Under the pieces are notes generated by a model. It searched no databases. It was given only the letters and a program-made list of their open reading frames with translations, and was not told the DNA's origin. The position numbers and the translations under genes are program-made. A stretch of DNA of 35,302 nt from assembly GCA_025362115.1 (NCBI GenBank), contig JANYIK010000114.1:1-35302 (forward strand). The letters run 5' to 3'. Positions 2,293 to 17,506 of this stretch are shown one piece after another (within the stretch, counting starts at the first letter, position 1; each line of letters opens with the position of its first letter). The stretch is from Methylophilaceae bacterium. GTDB taxonomy: Bacteria; Pseudomonadota; Gammaproteobacteria; Burkholderiales; Methylophilaceae.

Positions 2293-3225
2293 ATGGAAGT
2301 GTTACTAGCAAACCCTCGTGGATTCTGCGCCGGTGTTGACCGCGCCATCATTATTGTCGAGCAAGCCTTGGAACGCTATGGCGCACCTATCTACGTCCGG
2401 CATGAAGTGGTACACAATAAATTCGTCGTAGATGACCTGAAGCGCAAAGGCGCGGTATTCATTGAAGACTTGGATGAAATTCCCGCTGGTAACACTGTTA
2501 TTTTCAGCGCTCACGGCGTTTCTCAAGCGGTACGCCACGATGCAGAAACACGCGGACTGCGTGTGTTTGATGCAACCTGCCCACTAGTGACCAAAGTCCA
2601 CATTGAAGTCAACAGAATGCACGCCAACGGGCAAGAGATCATCCTCATCGGCCACAAAGGTCACCCCGAAGTCGAAGGTACGATGGGTCAGGGTGAAGGA
2701 CGCATGTATCTGGTGGAAACACCAGAAGACGTGACCAAGCTGGAGGTTACCGATCCGCATAAGCTGGCTTACATCACGCAGACCACGCTGTCTATGGACG
2801 ACGCTGCCAAGGTGGTGGAGGCTCTGAAAGCGCGCTTCCCCGATATAGCAGCACCCAGGAGTGACAGTATTTGTTACGCCACACAAAACCGTCAAGACGC
2901 GGTGAAGAACATGATTAAGCACTGTGATTTGATTATCGTGGTGGGTTCACCCAATAGCTCAAACTCTAACCGTTTGCGCGAAGTGGCGTTGAATCAGGGA
3001 ATCTCGTCTTATATGGTTGATACCGCTAAGGAACTTGATCCCACTTGGCTGAATGGCAAACAACACATCGGCGTGACTGCGGGTGCTTCAGCGCCGGAAG
3101 TGTTGGTTCAAGAGGTGATTGCGCGCTTGCAAGAACTGGGCGCGATTAAGGTAAAAAACCTGGATGGAATTACCGAAACTGTAGTATTTCCGCTCCCCAA
3201 AGGCTTAATGGCTCAGGCCGCTTAA
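2293..3225 (+). CDS. ispH: 4-hydroxy-3-methylbut-2-enyl diphosphate reductase IspH
   Basis: Terminal enzyme of the MEP pathway: a [4Fe-4S] protein that reduces HMBPP to IPP and DMAPP, the building blocks of quinones, undecaprenyl and the hopanoids made by the locus at 8-14 kb. 310 residues, normal for the family (~316). The three cluster cysteines are visible at C12 ([12 protein letters not shown]), in [12 protein letters not shown] and in [10 protein letters not shown]. Substrate-binding motifs [27 protein letters not shown] and [14 protein letters not shown] are intact. AGGAAG lies 8 bases before the ATG and a TATAAT stands upstream. Its end overlaps the convergent DoxX gene by 4 bases. Confidence 0.98.
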
Positions 3226-3611
3226 GCCTGTTTTTTCTTTAAGTTATCCAGACTGCACGTAGTCACTGGATTACAAGCCAGCAGCATCAATCCTCCCGCC
3301 AGTCCCAAGTAGAGAAACATTGCGTCTGGCTGGAAGCGTCCCAGGACAACCGCGGAAAACAACGTATATCCCAGCATCACATAGGCGGCGGTTCTGGTTT
3401 TCCATCCAGCAAACAACGCCAGCCCACCTAGCAGCTGTAACAATATCAACAAAGAGGCAAAAATTCTGGGCAATCCCAAACCCGCAAGTAGTGCAATATA
3501 CTGTTCATAGGCATCTGGATCGCCTTGAAAGTGAATCATTTTGAGCGTCACGATACCAAGAAAAGCCAATGCAAGCAGAATGCGCGCCAAAGCACTTGAA
3601 TATTTACACAT
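3222..3611 (-). CDS. DoxX family membrane protein
   Basis: 129-residue integral membrane protein of the DoxX/DUF417-like superfamily, with about four hydrophobic segments: [60 protein letters not shown] and [16 protein letters not shown]. The arrangement of the first helix, the GLP loop and the E/Q-L-GG-LAL-GW-RxAA core is characteristic. The family was named for a thiosulfate:quinone oxidoreductase subunit but most members are uncharacterised, so no reaction is assigned. The C-terminus has two cysteines ([10 protein letters not shown]) before a lysine-rich end. The start is supported by GAGG before the ATG. It converges on ispH with a 4-base overlap and has no visible terminator. Confidence 0.8.
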
Positions 3612-3736: not shown

Positions 3737-4282
3737 ATGTCTGACAAAATCATTTTCAAAGCTGGCGAAGCCACCGTTTTTACCCCTGGTAAGGACGTTA
3801 CTGCCGCGATGCCAGAAATTCTCATTGGGTCGGTAGATGGCCCCGTTGGCCAGGCTTTCGCCAACATGATGGCGCAAAGCAAGGGGCACACCGCAATGTT
3901 CGCTGTGCGCGACATCAACCAGATGGTAAGACCAGCCACCATGATGGTGCCCAAGGTCACATTGAAAGATAGCGCCAATATCGAACTGTTCGGTGGCGTG
4001 GTACAGGCGGCCACGGCGGACGCGATTCTGGATTGTGTCATCGAAGGCATCATCCCGCGCAACCACGCTAATGATTTATGCATCATCGCCTTGTTATGGA
4101 TAGACCCGGGTTGCGCTAAAGAAGCCAATCTGGACAAGGCAGACATGTACAAAAACAACTATGAAGCCACCAAGCTGGCCATCAGTCGTGCGTTGAATGA
4201 CGAACCAACCATAGACGAACTCATCAAGAATCGTCACACCATCAAACATTGCATGTGGGAAGACAGCTGGGATCAAAAATAA
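3737..4282 (+). CDS. Formaldehyde-activating enzyme (Fae) homologue lacking the catalytic His
   Basis: Clear member of the Fae family, which condenses formaldehyde with tetrahydromethanopterin. Conserved blocks are EILIGSVDGPVGQAFANMM, GHTAMFAVRDINQMVRPATMM with KVTLK, the EGIIPRNHANDLCII strand and NNYEATKLAISRAL near the end. In the Methylobacterium enzyme the catalytic residue is His22 within VAHIDLIIG; here the aligned segment is AAMPEILIG, so Met25 replaces it. The protein is 181 aa with an extra C-terminal tail (KHCMWEDSWDQK). It is therefore probably a Fae2/Fae3-type paralogue with an altered or binding role rather than a standard Fae. It heads a tight unit with three small genes; no other H4MPT-pathway gene is in the window. 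Family assignment is strong, function is open. Confidence 0.85.
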   Translation: MSDKIIFKAGEATVFTPGKDVTAAMPEILIGSVDGPVGQAFANMMAQSKGHTAMFAVRDINQMVRPATMMVPKVTLKDSANIELFGGVVQAATADAILDCVIEGIIPRNHANDLCIIALLWIDPGCAKEANLDKADMYKNNYEATKLAISRALNDEPTIDELIKNRHTIKHCMWEDSWDQK

Positions 4283-4615
4283 GTGCATCTCACGGGAATT
4301 GACTATCCTGAAAGCATAGATTTTATTACCCGTAGCGAGGGCGTTGTGCGCCTAGTGCTGGTTGAGCAGCGCCAGCTTAGCGAAGACAACGCCCCCGCAC
4401 TGCAAGACAAACTCAACAACTACCTCGGTTACGTCATCAATGGCATGCTGCAAACACAGCATCCCGAATCCATTGATGACACCGTTCGCATCCGCGTAGA
4501 ACTTGCGACTGAGCAGACTCCCTTCATCCACGAGTTTCTGCTGCTTTACGCATCAACATTGGCAGAATACGACATTGCTTTTGAGGTAGTACTCGACGGG
4601 GAGGTCATCATATGA
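4283..4615 (+). CDS. Conserved hypothetical protein, DUF6572-like
   Basis: 110 residues beginning with GTG immediately after the TAA of the Fae-like gene, so translation is surely coupled. The pattern IDFITRSEGVVRLVLVE, then PALQDKLNNYLGYVINGML and RIRVELATEQTPF, resembles the DUF6572 family as I recall it: short cytoplasmic alpha/beta proteins beginning with a Y/D-x-ID motif. No signal peptide, membrane segment or cysteine pair. Its position between a Fae paralogue and another unknown gene suggests a shared role, perhaps an accessory to one-carbon or aldehyde stress, but that is inference. The 3' end overlaps the next gene (ATGA). Confidence 0.75.
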   Translation: MHLTGIDYPESIDFITRSEGVVRLVLVEQRQLSEDNAPALQDKLNNYLGYVINGMLQTQHPESIDDTVRIRVELATEQTPFIHEFLLLYASTLAEYDIAFEVVLDGEVII

Positions 4616-4887
4616 CGGATGCTGTGACCGTAAAAAGGCTAGGCGAGACCAGTTTTGAAGTGATGGTGCAAGGCCGCACTGCGACTACGCACATTGTCAC
4701 GGTATCTACACAATACGCCGCCAAACTTACTGCGGGTAAAGTTGCTACGGAGGTGCTGGTGAGTCGTTCCTTTGACTTCCTGCTGGAGCGCGAACCCAAC
4801 ACCAGCATCCTGCGCCGCTTTGACCTTAGCGTCATCGCGCAATATTTCCCGGAGTACGAGCGTACAATCGTCAAGATGCTGGATTAA
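4612..4887 (+). CDS. Hypothetical protein in the Fae-like operon
   Basis: 91 residues, unrecognised. ATG overlaps the stop of the preceding gene by four bases (ATGA), a strong sign of coupled translation; GGGGAGG lies about 10 bases upstream. The N-terminal half is beta-rich and threonine/valine-rich (TVKRLGETSFEVMVQGRTATTHIVTVS). The C-terminal half is predicted helical (VLVSRSFDFLLEREPNTSILRRFDLSVIAQYFPEYERTIVKML). The phrase SFDFLLERE..ILRRFDLSVIAQYFPEYE looks like a conserved core of a small family that I cannot name. No export or membrane signals. Confidence 0.75.
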   Translation: MTDAVTVKRLGETSFEVMVQGRTATTHIVTVSTQYAAKLTAGKVATEVLVSRSFDFLLEREPNTSILRRFDLSVIAQYFPEYERTIVKMLD

Positions 4888-4921
4888 AGCTCATACTGAA
4901 TTTATAACTTAGGAGTTAAAA

Positions 4922-5425
4922 ATGTCCCTTTCAATGTATCAAGCCTCAATCCCCGTTTTTGTAAAATTTCTAGGGAATCTATCCACGATACTAGAAAAAG
5001 GCGCTGCCCATGCGGAGGCCAAGAAAATCGAACCTTCCGTGTTGATCAACTCAAGACTGGCAGCCGATATGTACCCGCTTTCGCGCCAGATACAGATCGC
5101 CACTGACGTAGCGAAAGGCTGTGCCGCACGTCTGGCTGGCATTGAAGTACCGAGCTATGAAGACAAGGAATCGACCTTTCCCGAACTACAGGCACGTATC
5201 GCCAAGACCGTGGCCTTTTTACAAAGCGTGACCCCGGCACAAATAGACGGTAGCGAGGGGCGCAGCGTCACCCTCAAACTGCGCGGCAAGGATGTCACCT
5301 TTTTAGGGCAACCCTACCTGCTCAACTTTGCCATCCCCAATGTATTTTTTCACGTCACCACGGCCTACGACATCTTGCGCCACAACGCCGTAGAACTGGG
5401 CAAGATGGATTTTCTTGGAAGATAA
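4922..5425 (+). CDS. DUF1993 family protein
   Basis: 167 residues matching the DUF1993 pattern: N-terminal MSLSMYQASIPVFVKFLGNLSTIL, then INSRLAADMYPLSRQIQIATDVAKGCAARLAG, and a C-terminal PNVFFHVTTAYDILRHNAVELGKMDFLG. DUF1993 proteins are DinB-like four-helix bundles with unknown biochemistry. A strong AGGAG precedes the ATG. The gap to the previous gene is 34 bases with no terminator, so it is probably the last cistron of the Fae-like unit. A large stem-loop begins 13 bases after its stop. Confidence 0.88.
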   Translation: MSLSMYQASIPVFVKFLGNLSTILEKGAAHAEAKKIEPSVLINSRLAADMYPLSRQIQIATDVAKGCAARLAGIEVPSYEDKESTFPELQARIAKTVAFLQSVTPAQIDGSEGRSVTLKLRGKDVTFLGQPYLLNFAIPNVFFHVTTAYDILRHNAVELGKMDFLGR

Positions 5426-5438
5426 ATCTGGCTGACTA

Positions 5439-5509
5439 AATGTCAGAAGTCGGCCTTGGATTCAACCGGTGGATGCAAGGCCAGAAGCTGACATTAGCTG
5501 ATAAGCTAA
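5439..5509 (+). repeat. Compound stem-loop downstream of the DUF1993 gene
   Basis: Two stacked perfect arm pairs: AATGTCAG (5439-5446) with CTGACATT (5488-5495), and GGCCTTG (5452-5458) with CAAGGCC (5476-5482). They are separated by a symmetric 5+5 internal loop and closed by a 17-base apical loop that itself contains ACCGGT. A second hairpin TTAGCT-GATA-AGCTAA (5494-5509) follows at once. No long T-run, so not a classic intrinsic terminator. It could end the Fae-like transcript, be a repetitive extragenic element, or be part of a structured RNA. It marks the boundary to the AT-rich acyltransferase gene. Confidence 0.7.
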
Positions 5510-5558
5510 ACTATTACTGCTGTGTCCCAGAATCAGCCATTCGGAGGCGTTCTAATTT

Positions 5559-5567
5559 TGCTACAAT
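5559..5567 (+). promoter_or_regulatory. Possible extended -10 promoter of the acyltransferase gene
   Basis: TGCTACAAT gives an extended -10 (TG-N-TACAAT), with an AT-rich approach. No convincing -35. The leader would be about 55-60 bases. Weak, sequence-only call. Confidence 0.3.
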
Positions 5568-5629
5568 TTTCGCATCAGGTTTTGTACTTCACAACATAGA
5601 ACACCAGAATTTCCAATGTTTCTTGCAAA

Positions 5630-7642
5630 ATGAAAAATTCCAATAGCCAGAGCCTAGAACTAACTACACATCTTAATAAAATTCAATATCGTGCAGATAT
5701 CGATGGCTTACGGGCGCTGGCAGTTATTTTTGTAGTTCTATTTCATGCTTTTCCACTACTATTAAGAGGTGGATTTGTTGGTGTTGACATCTTTTTTGTT
5801 ATTTCTGGCTTTCTTATTTCGACAATTATTATTAATGATCTTGAAAAACTAAATTTTAGTTTTATTGAATTTTACAGTCGCAGGATAAGACGTATCTTTC
5901 CTGCATTACTTCTTGTTCTAATATCTACCTATTCTGTCGGCTGGTTTGTACTGTTGGGTGACGAGTACACTCAACTTGGAAAACATCTTATGGCGGGTGC
6001 TGGATTCATTTCCAATCTAGTGCTTTGGAATGAGAGTGGATATTTTGACGCATTAGATGAAACCAAACCACTACTACATTTATGGTCGCTAGGAATCGAA
6101 GAGCAGTTTTATATCGTATGGCCATTTATATTATGGATTACATATAAGAAACGTTCCACCACTCTCGGTGTGCTACTGTCAATCACTCTCATATCATTCA
6201 TCTTAAATGTGCGAGGGATTCATTCGAATGTAACTGCCACGTTTTATTCACCGCTAACCCGATTATGGGAGTTATCGATAGGGTCATTATTAGCCTATTC
6301 CACGATGAAAGAAAATAATTTCGTGAGCAATCTTAAAGAAAAGATTTCTGTTCGGATAAGTGCGTTATTTCTTGGTAAGCCAGAAGAGGAAGCCTCTTTA
6401 TTAAATAATGTTCAGACAACATTAGGTGTTTTTCTGTTAATCGTAGCCGTGTGCCTGTGTAAAGAGAAGAGTTTTCCTGGTTTGTGGGCTGTTCTGCCAA
6501 CTTTAGGTACTGTATTAATTATTTCATCGGGCTCTTCTGACCATGATGCATGGTTTAACCGTAAAGTGCTTTCAAGTCAATTTTTAGTATGGTTTGGCTT
6601 GATAAGTTTTCCGCTGTACTTGTGGCACTGGCCACTTCTTGTACTTTTGCCCCGTATTATAAACGACACATCTTCACATGAAATTTTCACCAAGGTAATA
6701 TCAATTGCCATTTCAGTCGGTCTTGCTTGGATTACATACATTCTTATAGAACGGCGCTTCCGGTTTGGTGCATATTTAAAAGCCAAAACTCTATCGTTAA
6801 TCGTTTTAATGATCCTTGTAGGTGGTACTGGTTATTATTGCTTTAAAGAGAACGGTTTTAAGCGTAACGGATTAGGGGCTGGGTTTCCAAAAGTTGTTCA
6901 AGACTTGTCTGAGTATCATTACGACCCAAATGGGGCATATCGAGTTGATATTTGCCATCTGGATGAAGAAATTCAATTCAACAGTTTTGATAAATGCCCC
7001 GATCGGTGGGCGCCTAACGGTAAAAATATATTAATTTGGGGTGATTCACATGCAGCCCATCTATATCCTGGATACCAGACTAGGTATAGTCAGTCCTATT
7101 CAATTATTCAACGGACCGCTGGCTTTTGCCCCCCGATACTGAATGATAACTTTAAGGGTACGAAGTACTGCCGGGAAATGAATGGGTATGTTTTTGATGA
7201 GATAAAAAAACAAAGGCCAGAAAGGGTGGTTCTTTCAGCAAACTGGGCTAAAGATAAATATAATTGGCAAGCCGTTGAGAAGACTGTTCTTGCATTGCAG
7301 GCAGTTGGGATAAAAAACATAGACTTGATTGGACCTGTCCCGCGGTGGGATAAACCATTGTCTAAATTGGCTCGACGATACATTATGAACCATCAACCTT
7401 TGTATCATATTCCGTATCGGATCAACTCTGGATTGAGTACCAAAGTTTTTAAGCTTGATGAGAAGATGCGAAATTTTTCAGCCCGTTTGCATATACGATA
7501 TATTTCAGCAACGGATATTTTTTGCAATGTCGAAGGGTGCGTTACTCGATCAGGTGATTCAGTGGATACCTTGGTTGCTTGGGACAACGCGCATCTTACA
7601 AAGGCTGGTTCGGAATTTTTAGTCTCTCATTTTCCGAACTAG
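5630..7642 (+). CDS. Membrane O-acyltransferase with C-terminal SGNH domain (OafA/OatA type)
   Basis: 670 residues. The N-terminal ~400 form an acyltransferase-3 membrane domain: RADIDGLRALAVIFVVLFH with the essential His39, then GGFVGVDIFFVISGFLIS, SRRIRRIFPALL, HLWSLGIEEQFYIVWP and about ten hydrophobic segments. After a linker comes a periplasmic SGNH esterase-like domain with WGDSHAAH (nucleophile Ser473) and the catalytic DNAH (Asp652, His655) near the end. Such proteins move acetyl groups across the inner membrane onto O-antigen, peptidoglycan or other glycans. The gene is strikingly AT-rich, with T/A-ending codons throughout, unlike both flanks, and is a lone gene between unrelated units, so horizontal acquisition is likely. 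No clear Shine-Dalgarno precedes the ATG. The substrate cannot be told from sequence. Confidence 0.92.
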   Translation: MKNSNSQSLELTTHLNKIQYRADIDGLRALAVIFVVLFHAFPLLLRGGFVGVDIFFVISGFLISTIIINDLEKLNFSFIEFYSRRIRRIFPALLLVLISTYSVGWFVLLGDEYTQLGKHLMAGAGFISNLVLWNESGYFDALDETKPLLHLWSLGIEEQFYIVWPFILWITYKKRSTTLGVLLSITLISFILNVRGIHSNVTATFYSPLTRLWELSIGSLLAYSTMKENNFVSNLKEKISVRISALFLGKPEEEASLLNNVQTTLGVFLLIVAVCLCKEKSFPGLWAVLPTLGTVLIISSGSSDHDAWFNRKVLSSQFLVWFGLISFPLYLWHWPLLVLLPRIINDTSSHEIFTKVISIAISVGLAWITYILIERRFRFGAYLKAKTLSLIVLMILVGGTGYYCFKENGFKRNGLGAGFPKVVQDLSEYHYDPNGAYRVDICHLDEEIQFNSFDKCPDRWAPNGKNILIWGDSHAAHLYPGYQTRYSQSYSIIQRTAGFCPPILNDNFKGTKYCREMNGYVFDEIKKQRPERVVLSANWAKDKYNWQAVEKTVLALQAVGIKNIDLIGPVPRWDKPLSKLARRYIMNHQPLYHIPYRINSGLSTKVFKLDEKMRNFSARLHIRYISATDIFCNVEGCVTRSGDSVDTLVAWDNAHLTKAGSEFLVSHFPN

Positions 7643-7783
7643 ACAGCCGACAATTTTACACTCTTGAAAAGCAATTTATTTTGGCAGCATGAAAATGCCA
7701 TTGACTGATAACAAACGAGCACTGTATGTTCGGTTATGGGAAAAATGACCGGCAAGAATGGGGCTGCTACCGACACCCAAGCT
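7643..7783. other. Convergent gap without recognisable features
   Basis: 141 bases between the acyltransferase gene (+) and hpnO (-). Only a weak 5-bp TGGCA/TGCCA repeat near 7682 is visible, without a T-run. The base composition returns from AT-rich to the background level here, so it may be one border of the acquired segment. Confidence 0.4.
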
Positions 7784-9172
7784 TTACCCCGCCTTATTCT
7801 TCAAAGCGTGCCCCGCCAGCGTCTTGCCCAAGTCCCATATCGCCCCCGGCACTTTGTGGGTATCGGCGATGACCTGATCGGTGGCGTTGATTATCCAGCT
7901 CACGTCTTCGTCGCCTATCACCAGCGGTGGTAACCATTTAACGACATTCATGCCGTGTCCGGCTACTTGGCTGAGGATGCGATGCTGCTTGAATAACGGG
8001 ATGGCGATCATCTGGCTGAACAAGCCTTTATTCGCGGCCTCCAGCAGGCTCCATGCGGCTTTGAGTGACAAGCTCTTGGGTGAGCCGAACTCTAGCGCGA
8101 TCATCAAACCCTGACCGCGTACTTCCTTGAGGAATTCGTATTTGGGGACTAGCGCTTGCAGTGCAGCAAGCAGTTGCTCGCCGCGTCGCGCGGCATTTTC
8201 CACTAACTTTTCTTCGGTGATGACATCCAGCGTCGCAATCCCCGCCGCCATTGCCATATTGTTCTTTGAGAACGTGGAGCCATGTACCACGGCTCTATCC
8301 ATGCGATTGAACACACGCTCCATGACGTGGCTGGTCATGGCGACTGCGCCGACAGGCACGAAACCACCGGATAGCGCCTTGGCCATCAGTATCATGTCGG
8401 GTTCATCAACGCCATAATGCTCTATGGCCCAGAACTTGCCGGTGCGCCCCAAGCCAGTCTGCACCTCGTCGGCCACCACCAGCGCACCGTGTTTGCGGCA
8501 TAGTTGTGCGGCTTCACGCAAGAATCCTGGCGCGGGCAGGTTGACGCCCTTGCCTTGAATCGGCTCGAAGATAAGCGCCGCCACATCACCGCGCGACAAT
8601 TCATGCTCAAGTGCAGCCAAGTCATTGAACGGCACAGTGACCACATCCGCCAGCAATGGCCCGAAACCTTGGCGGAACACGTTCTCGCTGGTGACCGACA
8701 GTGCGCCTAGCGTCAACCCATGATAACCATGGTCGAAGCTGATGATTTTGGAACGGCCTGTGGTGTAGCGGGAAAACTTGATCGCGGCTTCCACTGCTTC
8801 GGCTCCGGAAGAACAGAAGAACATGCGGCGCAGGTTGCCAGGGCAGTGCGACAATATTTTCTTGGCCAGGATACCGGAGAGCAAGGACACATCCAGTTGC
8901 ACCAAGTCCGGCAATTGACCCCCCAGCACGCCCTGTAACGCGGCAACAATCTTGGGGTGGTTGCGTCCCATGGCAAATACGCCGAAACCCGCCAGCAAAT
9001 CAAGGTAGCGCTGCCCCTCGGCATCAAACAGATACGGCCCTTCGGCGCGTGTATAGGTTCGGTCATAGCCTATGGTCTTGAGCATCTTGACCATCTGCGC
9101 GTTCAGGTGTTCTTCGTGCAGCTCGAATCTGTTACCCGTTTGTTGGCTTAGCCATTCACTACCATTTTCCAC
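7784..9172 (-). CDS. hpnO: Hopanoid-associated class III aminotransferase HpnO
   Basis: PLP-dependent fold-type I, class III aminotransferase (462 aa). Motifs: SSGAEAVEAAIKFSR for cofactor binding, HGYHGLTLGALS, EPIQGKGVN, the DEVQTGLGRTGKFWA aspartate segment and Schiff-base Lys265 in ILMAKALSGG. General family members act on ornithine or aspartate-type substrates. Position directly after hpnG in a squalene-hopene cluster, and the extended N- and C-terminal segments, point to HpnO, which aminates the C35 side chain to give aminobacteriohopanetriol. It is the last gene of the sqs-shc-hpnG-hpnO unit, 16 bases after hpnG. The 141-bp convergent gap to the acyltransferase gene holds no clear terminator. 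Confidence 0.9.
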   Translation of the reverse strand: MENGSEWLSQQTGNRFELHEEHLNAQMVKMLKTIGYDRTYTRAEGPYLFDAEGQRYLDLLAGFGVFAMGRNHPKIVAALQGVLGGQLPDLVQLDVSLLSGILAKKILSHCPGNLRRMFFCSSGAEAVEAAIKFSRYTTGRSKIISFDHGYHGLTLGALSVTSENVFRQGFGPLLADVVTVPFNDLAALEHELSRGDVAALIFEPIQGKGVNLPAPGFLREAAQLCRKHGALVVADEVQTGLGRTGKFWAIEHYGVDEPDMILMAKALSGGFVPVGAVAMTSHVMERVFNRMDRAVVHGSTFSKNNMAMAAGIATLDVITEEKLVENAARRGEQLLAALQALVPKYEFLKEVRGQGLMIALEFGSPKSLSLKAAWSLLEAANKGLFSQMIAIPLFKQHRILSQVAGHGMNVVKWLPPLVIGDEDVSWIINATDQVIADTHKVPGAIWDLGKTLAGHALKNKAG

Positions 9173-9188
9173 TATTGCATCCCTTTTT

Positions 9189-9875
9189 TCAGAGTTTGCT
9201 CAATACGCCACTAGTGCGGCGCAGAGTGGCCGCAGCAAGATCAAACCGTGTTTTTAATGGCCATAATGCAGCTAAGTCAGCAGGATGACGCAATAAGTTC
9301 GCCGCAAGGCGCAAACCATATATTTCACCCAGCGGATTCAGTGCGCCGTCCAAGCTCGCAGGAAGGCTATCATGGCAGGTATCTGCAACCGCTCTCAGCA
9401 CCAGCCCGGGGACGCTGTGACGCTGTGCAACGCGCAATACTGCGGCACTTTCCATATCTACTGCCACCGCACCGCTGGTTTCTGCCAAGCGCCGCTTCTC
9501 TGTCGTGCTATTTACCGCAACCCTTGATTCGACAATAGGTCGCGCATCCGCTGGCATCTGTAGTGCTTGCAATAGTTTGTTGCGCCACAATTCGTCAACC
9601 GCAAGCTCCACGCCGTCGGCACCCTTTACCTGTGTCGGAACTAATAGTGAACCAGCCTCTACGTCGTCCACCAAACCACCGGCGCAGCCCCAGCTTACCA
9701 ACACGTTTACGCCGAGTTTAACCAGCGCTTCGGCGGCAAGTTCGGCACGTGCTGCGCCCATGCCACCTACACACGCAGCCACGCCATCAGCACTCACCAC
9801 CTTGCCCATCACTACATGCTTCAAGCCCAGTATGTGCGCCTCGCGCTTGAGCGCGACGACTATGCCGATGGGCAT
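9189..9875 (-). CDS. hpnG: Hopanoid nucleoside phosphorylase-like HpnG
   Basis: 228 residues of the MTA/SAH nucleosidase (purine nucleoside phosphorylase) superfamily. The N-terminal IGIVVALKREAHIL, the GMGAARAELAAEAL and VSWGCAGGL core strands, and AVDMESAAVLRVA with the ribose-binding Met-Glu are all visible. In hopanoid producers HpnG removes adenine from adenosylhopane to give ribosylhopane (or its phosphate), the step after HpnH. The start ATG lies inside the end of shc (16-base overlap), which indicates translational coupling. The family is shorter and more divergent than Pfs/MtnN enzymes; genome context makes the HpnG call strong. Confidence 0.92.
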   Translation of the reverse strand: MPIGIVVALKREAHILGLKHVVMGKVVSADGVAACVGGMGAARAELAAEALVKLGVNVLVSWGCAGGLVDDVEAGSLLVPTQVKGADGVELAVDELWRNKLLQALQMPADARPIVESRVAVNSTTEKRRLAETSGAVAVDMESAAVLRVAQRHSVPGLVLRAVADTCHDSLPASLDGALNPLGEIYGLRLAANLLRHPADLAALWPLKTRFDLAAATLRRTSGVLSKL

Positions 9876-11815
9876 GAGTTTGTTGCCAGGTCAGCCGCCA
9901 GATAGCGCGCCAGCGCCCACAACGGGAAATATTTATCGTAACCGTGGTACTTCAGGTAAAACACTTTGGGGAAACCCGGCGCGGTGAAGTAGTTGTCATA
10001 CCACACGCCATCTGCGGCTTGCGCGCGCGTCAGAAAGGCGATGCCGCGTTCAACTTCCGGCGAACGGCCTTCCGCTGCCAGCAAGCCCAGCAGAGCCCAA
10101 GCGGTTTGGAATGCGGTGCTGGCTAGTGCTGTGCCGTGCAATGAGCGGTCTGCATAGCTGTCTTGGGTTTCGCCCCAGCCACCGTCAGCGCGCTGTTTGC
10201 TTTTCAGCCAGACTATCGCTTTTTGTACGCGTGGCTGATTCATCGCCACGCCCGCTGCTTGCAGCGCTATCAGCACCGACCATGCGCCGTAAATATAATT
10301 GCTACCCCAGCGCCCGAACCAACTGCCGTCGGATTCCTGCTCGCGCCAGATATAGTCCAAACAGCGATCAACCGCTGGTTGATAGCGTGCATCACGCTTT
10401 GCCAGCGGCGCCAACAGCATCAGACAACGCGCACTCACGTCCACCGTTGGTGGATCCAGCAGTGCGCCGTGGTCGGCGAAGGGAATAGAGTTGAGGTAAT
10501 AATGCGTGTTATCTACGTCGAAAGCGGCAAATCCGCCGCCAGCCGATTGCATGCCGTTCACCCAATCAGCGGCACGACGCACGTTGTCTGCAAACTCAGG
10601 CGCTTGTGACTGCATCATGGCGTAGGCAATAACCGCCGTGTCGTCCACGTCGGGATAATAGCTATTGTTGAATTGAAACGCCCAGCCGCCGCCCGCGATG
10701 TCTGGCGCACTGTCGCGCCAATCGCCAGCCTCGTCTGTGGTCAATTGTTTGCTGGCGCACCAGCGCAAAGCATTTTCAACCGCTTTGCTGATCGTGGCAT
10801 CGTGGCTGGTTCGCAGCACTTCTTGCAAACTCAGCGTGGCTAGGCCGGTGTCCCATATTGGCGAGGCACAAGGCTGACAATAAGCGTAATCGTCATGCTC
10901 CACCACCAGCAAGTCAATGGCGCGGCGTGCTGTGACAACTCGAGGATCACTTGGCGGAATACCCAAAGCCAGCATCGCTTCATAGGCATTAACCATCGCC
11001 GGAAAAATCGCCCCCAAGCCATCTTCGCCATTGAGCCTGGCCTCGAACCATTCCAGCGCAAGGCGCGTGGCGCGGCGGCGCATGGCTTTGGGAATCAGCG
11101 GTTCGATGAAGGTGCGGCCTATTTTGTCTAGCAACAGAAAGAATTTACCCGTGCGGGTTTGGATGGAGTCGAAGTAGCTAGTTTCTTGTTCCGGATCAAC
11201 GTGGAACAACTCAGCAACGCCAATCTTTTTGGGATTTTTAGCTTTGACTTTAAGCGTAGTCAGCACGAACAGCGGCACCATCACCGTGCGCGACCAGTAA
11301 GACACTTTACTCAAGTGGAAGAAAAACCATTTTGGCAGCAGCATGATTTCGACCGGAATATACGGCACTCCGCGCCACGGTAGCTGCTCGAACATGGCCA
11401 ATGCGATACGAGTGAACACATTGGCATGTGCCGCACCACCGTGCACTAACACATATCTACGCGCCTGTTCCATGTGGGCTGAATCAATATCGTCACCCGC
11501 CAACTTAAGTGCATAATAGGTCTTGATGGTGCAACTGAGATCACCCTCGCCGCCTGTGTACAGAGGCCACGAACCATCGGTGTTTTGCCGTGCCCGCAGA
11601 TAGCACCCAATCTTGGTTTCCAGCGCAGTGTCAATGTCATCCACATAGTGGCGCATCATGATGTATTCAGATGGAATCGTGCAGTCGGCCTCCAGCTCGT
11701 ACACCCAATAACCATTGGCGTGCTGATGGCTCAGAATGTTACGTACCGCAGCATCCAATGCGGCTTTGCTGGTGGCTTCAAGAGTGTCGGTGGAAAATTC
11801 AGTCAATTTATTCAT
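9860..11815 (-). CDS. shc: Squalene-hopene cyclase
   Basis: Monotopic membrane enzyme cyclising squalene to hopene/hopanol. About 651 residues, normal for the family. The catalytic DXDD motif is PDVDDTAV at about residues 389-392. Repeated QW motifs are scattered through the protein (for example QNTDGSWPLY, EQESDGSWFGRWGSNYIYG, KQRADGGWGETQDSY, AADGVWYDNYF). The C-terminal FPKVFYLKYHGYDKYFPLWALARY is typical. The track starts at TTG 11821, overlapping the sqs stop; I prefer ATG 11815, two bases past that stop. Neither has a strong ribosome site, consistent with coupling. Also called hpnF. The downstream end overlaps hpnG. Confidence 0.97.
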   Translation of the reverse strand: MNKLTEFSTDTLEATSKAALDAAVRNILSHQHANGYWVYELEADCTIPSEYIMMRHYVDDIDTALETKIGCYLRARQNTDGSWPLYTGGEGDLSCTIKTYYALKLAGDDIDSAHMEQARRYVLVHGGAAHANVFTRIALAMFEQLPWRGVPYIPVEIMLLPKWFFFHLSKVSYWSRTVMVPLFVLTTLKVKAKNPKKIGVAELFHVDPEQETSYFDSIQTRTGKFFLLLDKIGRTFIEPLIPKAMRRRATRLALEWFEARLNGEDGLGAIFPAMVNAYEAMLALGIPPSDPRVVTARRAIDLLVVEHDDYAYCQPCASPIWDTGLATLSLQEVLRTSHDATISKAVENALRWCASKQLTTDEAGDWRDSAPDIAGGGWAFQFNNSYYPDVDDTAVIAYAMMQSQAPEFADNVRRAADWVNGMQSAGGGFAAFDVDNTHYYLNSIPFADHGALLDPPTVDVSARCLMLLAPLAKRDARYQPAVDRCLDYIWREQESDGSWFGRWGSNYIYGAWSVLIALQAAGVAMNQPRVQKAIVWLKSKQRADGGWGETQDSYADRSLHGTALASTAFQTAWALLGLLAAEGRSPEVERGIAFLTRAQAADGVWYDNYFTAPGFPKVFYLKYHGYDKYFPLWALARYLAADLATNSCPSA

Positions 11816-11817
11816 AG

Positions 11818-12888
11818 TCAATGCGCTAAAGCTAAAACGCTGGCGGCGACCGGGGCGGGGTGGGAAGTCGGCAAGCCTTGCGACATAGCCGCGAACACCA
11901 AGCGCAGCGCAAGGTCGGAACGGTGTGTGATACGGCTTAAACCAATAGTGGTATGCACCTCGCGACGTGTGATTTTAACTTCCGTAGCAGAAGAAAAATG
12001 CCGATGACGATTGATGCGACGCAATGTCAGCACCGCCATGCCTATCGCCCACAGACAAAAATCGCGTACGCCGACGTGACGTTTCGGAATGCGCAAAGTG
12101 TATTCCAAGGCATTGCGCAAATGGCCGTGAGCGGTGGCTATCAATTCCTCCATTGCTGCGGCGTAGGCGACATCGGTATTGGGGGAAAGCTGCGTCAAAT
12201 CGTATCCCACAGTAGAAAACACCGAGCGTGGCAACCAGATTACACCGCGTGAGCGGTCATCCCACATGTCTTTGAGGATGTTGGTCATCTGCAAGCCTTG
12301 ACCAAAAGAAACGCTGAGTGGCAATAGTTGATCGCGTTGCCGCAAGATTTCCGGGTCGAACTCACAAAACAAATCGGTGAGCATTTCACCCACCACACCC
12401 GCCACATAGTAGCAATAGCGCGACATATCTTCCATGTCATCAAGGCCACGTGACAAATCACGTCCTTGATAAACCCCCATGCCGTGCGACATGATACGGA
12501 TACAGCGTTCCAGAGCATGGCGCTCAGCCGCGCTGAAGCCATGCGTAATCGCCACCACACGAGAGGTAGCGGCGATTAATTCATGTTCGGCGGGCAGGGT
12601 GGCTTGAGACAGGCGTGGCGCAAGCTGCGTGGTGAAATCTGCGGCAGAGGCTTGATTTGCAACCACTTGTGAGAACAAATCGCAGAACTGGTTTTTCTCC
12701 TCACGAGTCAGTTCCACTTCGTCCTCCACCGTATCCACAATGCGACACAGCAGATAGGCGTTAGCCACCGCCCGCGATAGCGGCAAAGGCAAACGAGGGA
12801 TGGTGAGCGCAAACGTCCGCGAAACGCCCAGCAAAAAGTGAGCTTGCAGCGCATCGTCGTCAAGTTGTGTGAAAGTGGCTTCAGCCAT
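11818..12888 (-). CDS. sqs: Squalene synthase, eukaryotic-like (Sqs)
   Basis: 356 residues, longer than HpnC or HpnD (about 280). It follows the farnesyl-diphosphate farnesyltransferase pattern: SRTFALTIPRLPLPL, AYLLCRIVDTVEDE with the first aspartate motif at residues 52-57, YCYYVAGVVGEMLTDLF, and QMTNILKDMWDD as the second aspartate motif (about 203-211). These match the human-type enzyme motifs as I recall them (YCHYVAGLVG), not the shorter phytoene-synthase-like HpnC/D. It would condense two FPP via presqualene diphosphate and reduce to squalene with NADPH. First gene of the hopanoid unit; its stop adjoins the shc start. It lacks the long C-terminal membrane anchor of the eukaryotic enzyme. 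Confidence 0.88.
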   Translation of the reverse strand: MAEATFTQLDDDALQAHFLLGVSRTFALTIPRLPLPLSRAVANAYLLCRIVDTVEDEVELTREEKNQFCDLFSQVVANQASAADFTTQLAPRLSQATLPAEHELIAATSRVVAITHGFSAAERHALERCIRIMSHGMGVYQGRDLSRGLDDMEDMSRYCYYVAGVVGEMLTDLFCEFDPEILRQRDQLLPLSVSFGQGLQMTNILKDMWDDRSRGVIWLPRSVFSTVGYDLTQLSPNTDVAYAAAMEELIATAHGHLRNALEYTLRIPKRHVGVRDFCLWAIGMAVLTLRRINRHRHFSSATEVKITRREVHTTIGLSRITHRSDLALRLVFAAMSQGLPTSHPAPVAASVLALAH

Positions 12889-13094
12889 GTCGGCGATGAT
12901 TTAATTTGTAAACCTAAGTCGCGTCATATTACCGTAATTTTAATGCCAAAGAAACCCGTGGCTAGCATGAATGAAGCGGCATTACAAAGCCACGGCACAC
13001 CAATTTATGGCGGTTTAGTGTAAACTTATAAGACTAATTTGCGGTGCCTACTGTTGAGCGCCGCTGCCCTTTTTTAAAATTTCAGGAGCACTGC
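12889..13094. promoter_or_regulatory. Divergent control region sqs / hpnH with inverted repeat
   Basis: The 206-bp gap carries promoters for both arms of the hopanoid locus. A perfect 8-bp inverted repeat CCGTGGCT (12956-12963) / AGCCACGG (12988-12995), 24 bases apart, lies near the middle. A TTATAA at about 13026 could be the -10 for hpnH. No good -35 was found for either direction. The repeat may be an operator or an mRNA hairpin; the choice cannot be made by eye. Confidence 0.5.
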
Positions 13095-14198
13095 ATGAGT
13101 GTGCCGTTAAGACTACAAGCCGCAGTCGCCCGTTATCTCATCAAGCAAAAACTTGCGCGTCGTGAACGTTACCCATTGGTATTGATGCTTGAACCCTTGT
13201 TCAAATGCAATCTGGCCTGTGCCGGTTGCGGTAAGATTGACTATCCGGACGACATTCTGGATCAACGTATCAGCGTTGAGGACGCGCTAGGCGCCGCCGA
13301 TGAATGCGGCGCGCCTATTGTCTCTATTGCTGGCGGTGAGCCCTTGCTGCATAAGGAGTTACCTCAAATCGTCGCGGGCCTGATCGAGCGCAAAAAATAT
13401 ATCTATCTTTGCACCAATGCTTTATTGCTTAGTAAACGCATAGACGACTATCAACCATCGCCATACTTGTCGTTTTCCATACACTTGGACGGTATGAAAG
13501 ATCGGCACGACACCTCGGTGTGCCAGACCGGTGTATTTGAACGCGCGGTGGAAGCCGTCAAACTTGCACTAGGCAAGGGTTTCCGCGTCAGCGTCAACTG
13601 CACTTTGTTCCAGGGGGAGCCGCCGGAAGAAGTCGCCGAGTTTTTGGATTTCTGTACCGAACTAGGCGTGGAATCTATCACTCTTGCCTCAGGTTTCAGC
13701 TACGAACACGCGCCACGTCAGGACATCTTCATCCCCACCACTGACGGCAAACAGTTGTTCCGTTCCGTATTCGCTATCGGTAAACGCCTGAAAAAACGCT
13801 GGCCGCTCAATCATTCGCCTTTGTATATGGATTTTTTGGCGGGCAACCAAACCTTCCATTGCACCCCGTGGGGAAACCCGACGCGCAACGTGTTTGGCTG
13901 GCAAAAGCCCTGCTATTTGTTGGTTGACGAAGGCTACGCGCCCACATTCAAAAGTCTGATGGAAGATACGCCTTGGGAAAAATATGGCACTGCTAACAAC
14001 CCCAAATGCGCCAACTGCACCGCACACTGCGGCTATGAACCCACAGCCGTCAACGAAGCCCTCCGCCGTCCGTGGAAAGCGCTGTCCGTAGGCTTGTTTG
14101 GTCCACGCACCAGCGGTGCACTGGCACCAGCGGTTGCTCGCAATTACACCCTTCCTGAGCCTAAACGACCCGTAATTCGGGTGGAGTCTGTTTGTTAA
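13095..14198 (+). CDS. hpnH: Adenosyl-hopene transferase HpnH (radical SAM)
   Basis: Radical SAM enzyme that adds the 5'-deoxyadenosyl radical to hopene, giving adenosylhopane, the first step of C35 side-chain building. 367 residues from the ATG at 13095, which has AGGAG seven bases upstream; the track's earlier start is an open-frame extension. The [4Fe-4S] site is CNLACAGC (Cys38, Cys42, Cys45). SIAGGEPLLH is the SAM-binding GGE motif. C-terminal cysteines (CANCTAHCGYEPTA) match the HpnH C-terminal region. MEPLF-type LEPLFKCNLAC and SFSIHLDGMKDRHD are HpnH hallmarks. Divergent from sqs-shc-hpnG-hpnO, so both directions serve one pathway. Confidence 0.96.
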   Translation: MSVPLRLQAAVARYLIKQKLARRERYPLVLMLEPLFKCNLACAGCGKIDYPDDILDQRISVEDALGAADECGAPIVSIAGGEPLLHKELPQIVAGLIERKKYIYLCTNALLLSKRIDDYQPSPYLSFSIHLDGMKDRHDTSVCQTGVFERAVEAVKLALGKGFRVSVNCTLFQGEPPEEVAEFLDFCTELGVESITLASGFSYEHAPRQDIFIPTTDGKQLFRSVFAIGKRLKKRWPLNHSPLYMDFLAGNQTFHCTPWGNPTRNVFGWQKPCYLLVDEGYAPTFKSLMEDTPWEKYGTANNPKCANCTAHCGYEPTAVNEALRRPWKALSVGLFGPRTSGALAPAVARNYTLPEPKRPVIRVESVC

Positions 14199-14230
14199 CT
14201 CTGTAAATTATACGTAATTAGGATTAGGTT

Positions 14231-14623
14231 TTACAGGTAGGACTTCCACTCTTCGGCAAAAGAGCAGTTGGGTGGAGCCGCGCGAAATAGAGGTGCGATC
14301 TGCGAGTCACTGAGTCCGGCGGGAGTAACGCCTATCCTTGTGATATGGAACTGCCGTTCAGGGCGCGAGGCAGCAAAAGCAATGAATTTATCAACGGCAG
14401 GCTTGATTGCCTCCAGCGCCAGAGGTTCCATGTTGAAGCCTTTTACTGGAATGCCGTAACTGGTTCCTATGAAACCTTCGGCTATTCCCTGTCTCGCACC
14501 AAACTTGGTTGCGGCAATCAGCGCCCAGCCTACATCGTGTACGCCCTTTTTATTGCTACCATACACCAGCGCACTTTTCCCATCTGGCATCGCCATGTCT
14601 TTATGGAAGCTGAATTTTGACAT
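14231..14623 (-). CDS. Conserved hypothetical protein (phage/bacterial FGSN-type family)
   Basis: 130 residues. The layout ALVYGSNKKGVHDVGWALIAATKFGA, GTSYGIPVKGFNMEPLAL, FIAFAASRPERQFHITRIGVTPAGLSDSQIAPLF and the end NCSFAEEWKSYL match, from memory, a small family of unknown function found in phages and scattered bacterial genomes, labelled A1S_2505-like in some databases. Members begin with a VFGSN-x-x-G-x-H segment and have a T-R/x-IG-x-G-L-AG-x-x-D-x-x-IAP-F stretch. No signal or membrane segment. It is a lone gene between hpnH and mutY with its own promoter-like sequence. Function unknown; a nucleotide-binding fold is possible but unproven. Confidence 0.72.
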   Translation of the reverse strand: MSKFSFHKDMAMPDGKSALVYGSNKKGVHDVGWALIAATKFGARQGIAEGFIGTSYGIPVKGFNMEPLALEAIKPAVDKFIAFAASRPERQFHITRIGVTPAGLSDSQIAPLFRAAPPNCSFAEEWKSYL

Positions 14624-14701
14624 AACTGAATTCTCTTAATTTTCTTGGTTGATTCAATGTGCTACCTATCGGGTCACAATGATTATTCTTTAAATGGATA
14701 C

Positions 14702-14730
14702 ATTATTCCCCATTGCTTGCTGACGTTCAA
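14702..14730 (-). promoter_or_regulatory. Putative sigma-70 promoter of the lone hypothetical gene
   Basis: Read on the minus strand: TTGAAC (14730-14725), 17-base spacer, AATAAT (14707-14702). This gives a leader of roughly 70 bases to the ATG at 14623. Spacing ideal, hexamers close to consensus. It also means the gene need not depend on read-through from the mutY operon end. Confidence 0.45.
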
Positions 14731-14741
14731 CTTGATTCTGG

Positions 14742-15782
14742 TTAATTGGCTGCTATACCCAACAAAATCTTGCGTATGGGCGCCGGTAATGCGGCATCTA
14801 TTGCATCTTCTTTATCCAGCCATACCAAGCCGCTTTGACGTACTTCTGGCCGCATTTTCAACATTTTTAGTGGTTGTGGGGTGATGCGCAGGCGGAAGTG
14901 GGTGAAGGTGTGGGTGACTATGGGTAGGGTAGGCAACAACTTTGTTTCTAACCCTAAACGCTGACGTGCAACGAGTTGTACGTCTTCACCCATCGCCACT
15001 TCCGGCAAGCTCCACAATCCACCCCAGATGCCACTAGGTGGGCGTTTTTCCAGCAAGATTTCGTTGGCAGCGAGCAATATCAACATCACTATTTCACGCT
15101 CAGGAATAATCTTACGTTGCTTGGGCGTGGGCAATTGGGTGATGCGACTCTTTTTCCTCGCAACGCAGTTTTCACGCACTGGACACTTATCGCATTGTGG
15201 TTTGCTTCTGGTACATAGGGTTGCGCCTAAGTCCATCAGGCCTTGAGTGTAGCATTGGATGTCAGCTTTGGGTAACAGACTTTCCGCCAATTTCCACAGG
15301 CGTTTCTCAACCGCTGGCTGGCTAGGCCAGCCTTCTATACCAAAACAACGTGTAAGCACGCGCTTGACGTTGCCATCCAGTATGGTTTGAGTTTGACCAT
15401 AGGCAAATACGGTAATGGCGGAGGCGGTTGAACGGCCTATGCCAGGAAGGGCGTTGATTTTCTCATGGGTTTGAGGAAACTCGCCTTGGTATTGCTGCAT
15501 GATAGCAAGAGCTGCGGTATGCAGATTGCGCGCTCTGGAGTAGTAGCCTAAGCCACTCCAGTGGCGCAATACTTCATCCTCATCGGCTTGGGCTAAACTG
15601 GCAACATCTGGAAAACGCGACATAAATCGCTGATAATAGGGGATGACCGCAACGACTTGGGTTTGTTGCAGCATAATCTCTGACACCCAGATAGCGTAAG
15701 GATCTTGAGTATTTTGCCAAGGTAAGCTGTGGCGACCATGCAGCTGCTGCCATTGGATGAGTCGCTGAGAAAACTCTGCCAT
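14742..15782 (-). CDS. mutY: A/G-specific adenine glycosylase MutY
   Basis: Removes adenine mispaired with 8-oxoguanine. 346 residues. HhH-GPD domain with the motif INALPGIGRSTASAI, the catalytic aspartate in ILDGNVKRVLTRC, the Glu in SEIMLQQTQV, and a [4Fe-4S] loop CTRSKPQCDKCPVRENC. The C-terminal NUDIX-like 8-oxoG recognition domain (ILLEKRPPSGIWGGLWSLPE) is complete. The ATG at 15782 shares its A with the TGA stop of ptsI (TGATG), so the two are translationally coupled; the track's TTG start is one codon earlier. It is the last gene of the long minus-strand array. Confidence 0.97.
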   Translation of the reverse strand: MAEFSQRLIQWQQLHGRHSLPWQNTQDPYAIWVSEIMLQQTQVVAVIPYYQRFMSRFPDVASLAQADEDEVLRHWSGLGYYSRARNLHTAALAIMQQYQGEFPQTHEKINALPGIGRSTASAITVFAYGQTQTILDGNVKRVLTRCFGIEGWPSQPAVEKRLWKLAESLLPKADIQCYTQGLMDLGATLCTRSKPQCDKCPVRENCVARKKSRITQLPTPKQRKIIPEREIVMLILLAANEILLEKRPPSGIWGGLWSLPEVAMGEDVQLVARQRLGLETKLLPTLPIVTHTFTHFRLRITPQPLKMLKMRPEVRQSGLVWLDKEDAIDAALPAPIRKILLGIAAN

Positions 15783-17506
15783 CAAGCGTTAAGTTTTGCC
15801 AATAGCAACTCAGTTTTTTCCGGCTCGTTACTGGCCAAAATCTTGCGTACCAAATTTTCTATCTTAGGCAACTCAGTATTCAACACCTGCCGTTTCACCG
15901 CCAGTATGTGCGCCGGATGCATGGAAAACTGGCGCAAACCGAAACCCAGCAGCATTCTCGTTAGTCTCACATCCCCCGCCATTTCGCCGCATACGGAAAT
16001 CTCTTTTTTCGCTTTATTGGCGGCGCGGATGGTCATTTCCACCAATTGCAACACCGCCGGATGCAGTGGGTTGTAGAGGTGTGCAACTTCGCCGTCGGTG
16101 CGATCAATCGCCAGCGTGTACTGGATGAGGTCGTTGGTGCCTATGGATAAAAAGTCCAGGTGTCGCGCGAAGAGATTGGCACCCAAAGCGGCAGCGGGGA
16201 TTTCTATCATGCCTCCCACCGGAACCTTCGCATCAAACCCAATGTTGTCGTCTTTCAGGCTTTGTTTGGCACGCTCTATGGCTTGCAGCGCTTGCTTCAA
16301 CTCGACTAGATTGCACAGCATGGGGATGAGAATTTTCACCTTGCCGTAGTTGGAAGCACGCAAAATAGCACGTAGGTGAGCGTGAAACATCTGCGGCTCA
16401 GCCAAGCACAAACGTATCGCCCGCAAGCCCAGCGCTGGATTGGTGACGGTACGCTCGCTGTCTGGATTTACCTGCTTATCTGCCCCTATGTCTAGGGTGC
16501 GGATGGTGACAGGCAACCCTTTCATGGCATGTGCTACTTTGCGATAGGCTTCAAACTGCTCGTCTTCATCCGGCCAATCGCGGCGGTTCATGAACAGGAA
16601 TTCGGTACGATACAGTCCAATACCTGTTGCTCCAGCTGCCTTGGTTTGCACAATGTCTTGGGGAATTTCGATGTTGGCGTGCAGTTCAATTGCAGTACCA
16701 TCCAGCGTCACAGCGGCGGTTTGCTTGATACGCTTGAGTTTTTGCTGATCAATTTCCCATTGTTCTTGGCGTAATTTGTACTCTGCGAGCGTATCTTTAT
16801 CCGGCCCAACTATTACCACGCCCTGCTGACCATCTACGATGATCATTTCACCATCTTGAATGAGGTTACGTGCATGGCTCAACGCCACAATAGACGGGAT
16901 GTTCAGGCTACGCGCCAGAATCGCGGTGTGGGAGGTCGCACCACCGACATCCGTAATGAATGCGGCGAATTGATGCTGTTTAAACTGGATCGCATCGGCG
17001 GGCGATAAATCGTGCGCTACCAGTATCATGCCGCTTTCTTGCTCGGCCAACGCCGCTTGGTTGGGGTGACCCAGCAGCGCCTTGATTACGCGCTCCACCA
17101 CCTGCACTACGTCAAACTTGCGCTCGCGCAAATATACGTCTTCAATCGCCTCAAACTGCTCAACCAATGTTTCCATTTGCTGCTTCAACGCCCATTCCGC
17201 GTTACAACGCTCTTCGCGCATAATCGTTTTGGGCATTTGCGATAGCGAACTATCCGACAAAATCATCAAATGCGTATCTACAAACGCGCCCATTTCCGCT
17301 GGCGCGTTGTTGGGTAAACTTTGCCGAATGCTGCTTAGCTCTTCGCGTACCGTGGTCACCGCCTGCTCAAAACGATGCACCTCGAAATCCAGCTGTTCGG
17401 GACGCACATCATAGTGCGCTACTTCCAACAGTGCGTGCGAGACCAGATGGGCACGGCCTATGGCGATGCCTGCGGAAACACCTACGCCGTGCATGGTAAA
17501 ACTCAT
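15782..17506 (-). CDS. ptsI: PTS enzyme I (PEP-protein phosphotransferase)
   Basis: Takes phosphate from PEP and passes it to HPr. 574 residues, usual EI size. N-terminal HPr-binding domain; active-site His193 in GGATSHTAILARS; PEP-binding C-terminal barrel with GATGIGLYRTEFLFMNR, the RTLDIGADKQ segment, GGMIEIPAAAL, FLSIGTNDLIQYTLAIDR and the catalytic Cys in SVCGEMAGD. No PTS sugar permease is in the window, so this EI most likely feeds a regulatory chain through HPr and the mannose-type EIIA. The ATG at 17506 has AGAGG 8 bases upstream; M5 is an alternative. The upstream 60 bases contain a copy of this start region (separate entry). Confidence 0.97.
   Translation of the reverse strand: MSFTMHGVGVSAGIAIGRAHLVSHALLEVAHYDVRPEQLDFEVHRFEQAVTTVREELSSIRQSLPNNAPAEMGAFVDTHLMILSDSSLSQMPKTIMREERCNAEWALKQQMETLVEQFEAIEDVYLRERKFDVVQVVERVIKALLGHPNQAALAEQESGMILVAHDLSPADAIQFKQHQFAAFITDVGGATSHTAILARSLNIPSIVALSHARNLIQDGEMIIVDGQQGVVIVGPDKDTLAEYKLRQEQWEIDQQKLKRIKQTAAVTLDGTAIELHANIEIPQDIVQTKAAGATGIGLYRTEFLFMNRRDWPDEDEQFEAYRKVAHAMKGLPVTIRTLDIGADKQVNPDSERTVTNPALGLRAIRLCLAEPQMFHAHLRAILRASNYGKVKILIPMLCNLVELKQALQAIERAKQSLKDDNIGFDAKVPVGGMIEIPAAALGANLFARHLDFLSIGTNDLIQYTLAIDRTDGEVAHLYNPLHPAVLQLVEMTIRAANKAKKEISVCGEMAGDVRLTRMLLGFGLRQFSMHPAHILAVKRQVLNTELPKIENLVRKILASNEPEKTELLLAKLNA

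Follow-up and report, generated by a model that had tools for sequence, protein, structure and literature searches.

The window, i.e., the whole 35,302-nt stretch of DNA analyzed here, carries on its forward strand a gene for a 181-residue protein of the formaldehyde-activating enzyme (Fae) family (positions 3737–4282), which we refer to as fae2. The open reading frame matched PF08714 with a score of 201 bits (E = 1.2e-59), against a cut-off of 27 bits, over profile positions 2–158 of 159. The TAA stop codon of fae2 abuts the GTG start codon of a gene for a 110-residue DUF6572 protein (4283–4615; PF20212, E = 4.4e-10). This gene overlaps by 4 nt with the gene for a 91-residue protein (4612–4887), which had no Pfam match but belongs to a family that is widespread in Methylophilaceae. 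A gap of 34 nt then leads to a gene for a 167-residue DUF1993 protein (4922–5425; PF09351, E = 8.2e-65). All four genes are on the same strand, and the zero or negative spacing noted in the first-pass annotation for the first three of them, followed by the DUF1993 gene, was correct. Divergent from fae2, on the reverse strand, is a gene for a DoxX/MauE-like membrane protein (3222–3611; PF07681), the usual upstream neighbor in Methylophilaceae, while the usual downstream neighbor, mutY, is found at 14742–15785, also on the reverse strand (TIGR01084, 365 bits). The nearest C1 gene is purU (1302–2165). A search with family models from 1.3 to 15.8 kb of the window detected no H4MPT-pathway gene, in agreement with the earlier statement that none is nearby.

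By sequence, the protein is closest, among those with a solved structure, to the enzyme of Methylobacterium extorquens (PDB ID 1y5y). In a multiple alignment, the segment VAHIDLIIG of 1y5y, which includes the catalytic His22, was aligned without gaps to AAMPEILIG in the window protein, and His22 therefore corresponds to Met25. (The HMMER alignment introduced a short gap immediately before the AAMPEILIG segment.) The profile match, the ungapped alignment and the presence of Met25 all bear out the original description of the gene as encoding a Fae paralogue in which the catalytic His is replaced by Met. Across 132 Fae sequences, the residue in the His22 column was group-specific: His in 24/24 Fae1-type sequences (17 canonical sequences and seven from a divergent Fae1-like clade), Met in 99/99 Fae2 sequences and Glu in 9/9 Fae3 sequences. 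The Met residue characterizes the entire Fae2 subfamily, beyond the window protein.

In a tree calculated with the His22 column removed, the His-bearing sequences made up one side of a 100/100 branch, the Glu-bearing sequences formed a clade (97/100), and there were two residue changes in all at the His22 column. The Met group may be a clade or may be the source of the Glu group (one or two changes). The window protein lacks the catalytic His22 of canonical Fae1, fell outside the His-bearing side of the tree, and grouped with Met-bearing sequences at 57–94% identity. Its relatives are 78–94% identical in nearly all of the larger Methylophilaceae genomes and 57–74% identical in other Pseudomonadota families. 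Fae2 proteins of methylotrophic Pseudomonadota were named previously (PMC4109929, PMC3728764, PMC5023235), and fae2 was found in all Methylophilaceae genomes examined in PMC4109929, and fae3 in some. We equated the Met group with Fae2 and the Glu group with Fae3, because this published distribution (PMC4109929) agrees with ours. On sequence grounds, then, the window gene falls within the known Fae2 subfamily, with the published name assigned by distribution. Like the published Fae2, it belongs to a clade that is near-universal in the H4MPT-carrying members of the family, and it differs only in the neighborhood downstream of it in the window. In the literature that we searched, formaldehyde-activating enzyme was not mentioned in combination with either His22 or DoxX; older papers on the structure and on Fae2 and Fae3 may treat the residue.

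The AlphaFold model of the window protein had a pLDDT of 92.6. Its only significant matches in the PDB were 1y60 and 1y5y, the best being 1y60 with a TM-score of 0.92 (by target length) and an RMSD of 1.7, consistent with the Fae fold. The substrate-binding residues of M. extorquens Fae1, reportedly Asp24, Leu53, Lys71, Thr73 and Gln88 (UniProt), correspond to Glu, Phe, Lys, Thr and Gln in Fae2, the last three of which are invariant. Asn134, Tyr135 and Lys139 are common to Fae1 and Fae2 and lost in Fae3. While the fold and the residues Lys71, Thr73, Gln88, Asn134 and Tyr135 are thus kept, Fae2 is only ≈34% identical to Fae1, with His22 replaced by Met, Asp24 by Glu and Phe49 by His, and the window fae2 is not clustered with H4MPT genes. 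The residue at the Phe49 column, His51, is the sole invariant Fae2 histidine that is absent from canonical Fae1; His is invariant at this position in both Fae2 and Fae3, whereas most canonical enzymes have Phe. Fae3 from the same genome, which is 44% identical to Fae2, also shares the Pro-Glu sequence after the replaced residue, but has Glu where Fae2 has Met and lacks the Asn-Tyr pair. The divergent Fae1-like clade (L173, L174, L175, L195, L199, L201 and L202) is ≈30% identical to Fae1 and keeps the catalytic His (AHIN), and most of its members also have His at the Phe49 column. Between close relatives, the dN/dS ratio of fae2 was 0.03–0.06, demonstrating that Fae2 is under purifying selection and that the protein is not decaying. 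To judge from the conserved residues, Fae2 probably still binds pterin.

Neighboring genes were counted for 80 named fae2 loci, the upstream side being scored in 71 and the downstream side in 67. Upstream, 56/71 loci had a divergent DoxX-like gene, on the strand opposite to fae2, and 49/71 had a GNAT gene in the interval between the two. Downstream, mutY was found on the other strand within 2.5 kb of fae2 in 43/67 loci. The gap between fae2 and mutY ranged from 69 to 5266 nt, with a median of 1.25 kb (58 named loci), compared to 10.46 kb in the window. Since mutY is still present at this distance, a block of genes (4283–14740) lies between the two. This block contains the three small genes, genes for an AT3-SGNH acyltransferase and a class-III aminotransferase, and a set of hopanoid genes (HpnG, squalene-hopene cyclase, a squalene-synthase-like protein and HpnH). 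Next to mutY there is a 130-residue protein (14234–14623) that matches the NCBI model “A1S_2505 family phage non-structural protein”.

We considered the possibility, raised in the first-pass annotation, that fae2 and the DUF6572, 91-residue and DUF1993 genes form a dedicated aldehyde-sensing operon. The spacings (zero, negative and 34 nt), the location on a single strand, the retention of the arrangement in a sister genome (G001) and the low dN/dS in all four genes are consistent with such an operon. However, the three genes were found downstream of fae2 in only 1/67 named loci, that of the sister genome. For the DUF6572 protein, a search of other genomes of the family yielded weak matches only and no close homologue. 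Members of the 91-residue protein family occurred in 106/187 Methylophilaceae genomes, among them streamlined genomes that lack fae2; where inspected, the gene was located away from fae2 with unrelated neighbors. Furthermore, the block parts fae2 from its usual neighbor mutY. Because the neighbors of fae2 vary between genomes, the module reading fails. We rejected the four-gene module on these grounds of synteny, and consider a dedicated operon very improbable. What had looked like a novel operon is a known Fae2 gene followed by a local arrangement of three small genes with at most a putative link to it; co-transcription of the four genes within this genus is possible. Between the sister genomes, dS was 0.26–0.31 for the DUF6572 and 91-residue genes, 0.72 for fae2 and 1.15 for the DUF1993 gene, and this inequality suggests that the 4283–5425 region is a recombined mosaic. 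The DoxX-like protein (3222–3611) is also strongly different from that at the same place in the sister genome, despite identities of 98% for ispH and 94% for fae2 on either side of it; this might reflect a gene replacement.

Three Fae proteins are encoded in the genome: canonical Fae1 with the VAHID motif (C155), Fae3 with EPEIIIG (C146) and the window Fae2. The genes mch and ftr are also present elsewhere, both on C6. The classic fae and the mch that the first-pass annotation had proposed to look for outside the window thus both exist. In G000 and G001 (L003 and L007), fae3 adjoins genes for an FAD-dependent oxidase-like protein and an XRE-cupin-like regulator, reminiscent of the reported link between fae3 and methylamine (PMC5023235).

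Of 187 genomes of the family, 126 contained Fae2 together with mch and 49 contained neither, almost all of the latter belonging to two streamlined genera; the other 12 were discordant, and for the most part incomplete. When 45 genomes were searched with Pfam, Fae2 turned out to be the only full-length Fae in many of them. In total, Fae2 was the sole full-length Fae in 29 Methylophilaceae genomes from four genera, a list that excludes G112, which has a Fae1 fragment at a contig end, and G044, which is 48% complete. The completeness of 15 of the 29 genomes is at least 90%, and two genomes (G103 and G173) consist of a single contig. Met was present at the His22 column in 29/29. The genes mch and ftr were each found in 28/29, and none of the 15 more complete genomes lacked either of them. 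Remnants of fae1 could be seen in G124 and G160, one truncated after ≈37 codons, the other frameshifted and truncated. Outside Methylophilaceae, a Fae1-type match was also present in 22/22 Fae2 genomes sampled; the notion that Fae2 is always accompanied by Fae1 holds for that sample, but is false within Methylophilaceae. Conversely, G185 (99% complete) has Fae1 and Fae3 and no Fae2. One strain without a true Fae but with fae2 and H4MPT genes was noted earlier (PMC4109929), and the present count makes this single case a recurrent pattern. (The fae2 genes in two metagenome-assembled genomes labeled Methylococcaceae and Thiodictyon, L081 and L084, are 85–87% identical to Methylophilaceae genes; these contigs are probably mis-binned.)

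Fae2 is thus tied to the H4MPT pathway, since it is co-retained with mch and ftr and stands as the only Fae in 29 genomes; roles as enzyme, carrier or sensor are all compatible with this. Because Fae2 is alone in these 29 genomes, nearly all of which have mch and ftr, the “non-catalytic” label given to the protein in the first-pass annotation is unproven. One alternative is that Fae2 is a structural partner in mixed oligomers with Fae1. The two proteins have the same fold, and in the work on 1y60, Fae1 was reportedly oligomeric with active sites between subunits. However, Fae2 stands without a full-length Fae1 in the 29 genomes, making a role as a mere Fae1 partner hard to credit. It is also conceivable, but distinctly unlikely, that the substrate of Fae2 is a different pterin or C1 adduct, for instance in tetrahydrofolate-linked formaldehyde transfer or its reversal. 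A tetrahydrofolate role was modeled or proposed for Fae homologues (PMC11748545, PMC6277846), but the streamlined genera that lack mch are also without Fae2, and streamlined Methylophilaceae without H4MPT genes are described as reliant on the H4F route (PMC6794327).

The reading that we prefer, with a probability of roughly 0.45, is that Fae2 is a constrained, pterin-binding protein of the H4MPT pathway, either a His22-independent, low-flux enzyme or a carrier of methylene-H4MPT. Fae2 would bind H4MPT or methylene-H4MPT, and would either weakly accelerate the condensation with formaldehyde without His22, or hold and deliver methylene-H4MPT. The invariant His51 would be the only new candidate histidine for a His22-independent condensation, and we infer that it may have a part in such a residual activity or carrier role. 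A weak enzyme or carrier might suffice where the H4MPT flux is small, as in Methylophilaceae that use the RuMP cycle, and this would allow the loss of Fae1.

Mutants in fae1 fail to grow on methanol in Methyloversatilis universalis (PMC5023235) and Methylobacterium aquaticum (PMC7356819), despite the presence of genes named fae2. In these two species, Fae2 is therefore no replacement for Fae1. Formaldehyde and H4MPT condense spontaneously, and the pathway could therefore run with no Fae catalyst at all, in which case Fae2 could do something else. The failure of the fae1 mutants and the existence of the Fae2-only genomes can be reconciled if Fae2 supports a low flux only, or if spontaneous condensation supplies the flux. 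A low-flux role is tenable because Methylophilaceae have alternatives in the RuMP cycle and the H4F route (PMC6794327). The H4MPT pathway is expressed in the field in one reduced Methylophilaceae lineage (PMC8262872), which may or may not be Fae2-only. Rather doubtful, in our estimate, is the more specific proposal that, in the many Methylophilaceae lineages without Fae1, the His-less Fae2 is a working enzyme that condenses formaldehyde and H4MPT, either via His51 or by substrate positioning alone. If this proposal were true, His22 would not be essential to such chemistry.

Sensing is the usual guess for Fae homologues outside the canonical groups, the function of which was stated as unknown (PMC11748545). 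Fae2 could be a non-catalytic sensor or regulator of methylene-H4MPT or formaldehyde that binds its ligand and reports the C1 load to another protein, independently of the three downstream genes. Such a role agrees with the fixation of the catalytic His as Met, with previous proposals of sensing or signaling by Fae homologues (PMC3728764, PMC4109929, PMC11748545) and with the lack of a growth phenotype upon single deletion of fae2 in M. universalis (PMC5023235). However, within the family, fae2 has no conserved neighbor that encodes a regulator, kinase or transporter, and in other families, none of the Methylophilaceae-type neighbors tested was found within 1.5 kb of fae2. Moreover, the retention of Fae2 as sole Fae together with mch and ftr is explained equally by work in the pathway, and we consider a sensor somewhat unlikely.

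The window Fae2 scored 143.7 bits against TIGR03126, above the cut-off of 118.05. Under automated annotation, the His-less Fae2 is thus named formaldehyde-activating enzyme, a label by which metabolic models and surveys of methylotrophs based on fae can be misled. The group-specific catalytic column and the Fae2-only genomes that contain mch and ftr provide clean material for distinguishing between enzyme, carrier and sensor. Since Fae2 is the sole Fae beside a retained pathway in 29 Methylophilaceae genomes, its function is now directly testable.
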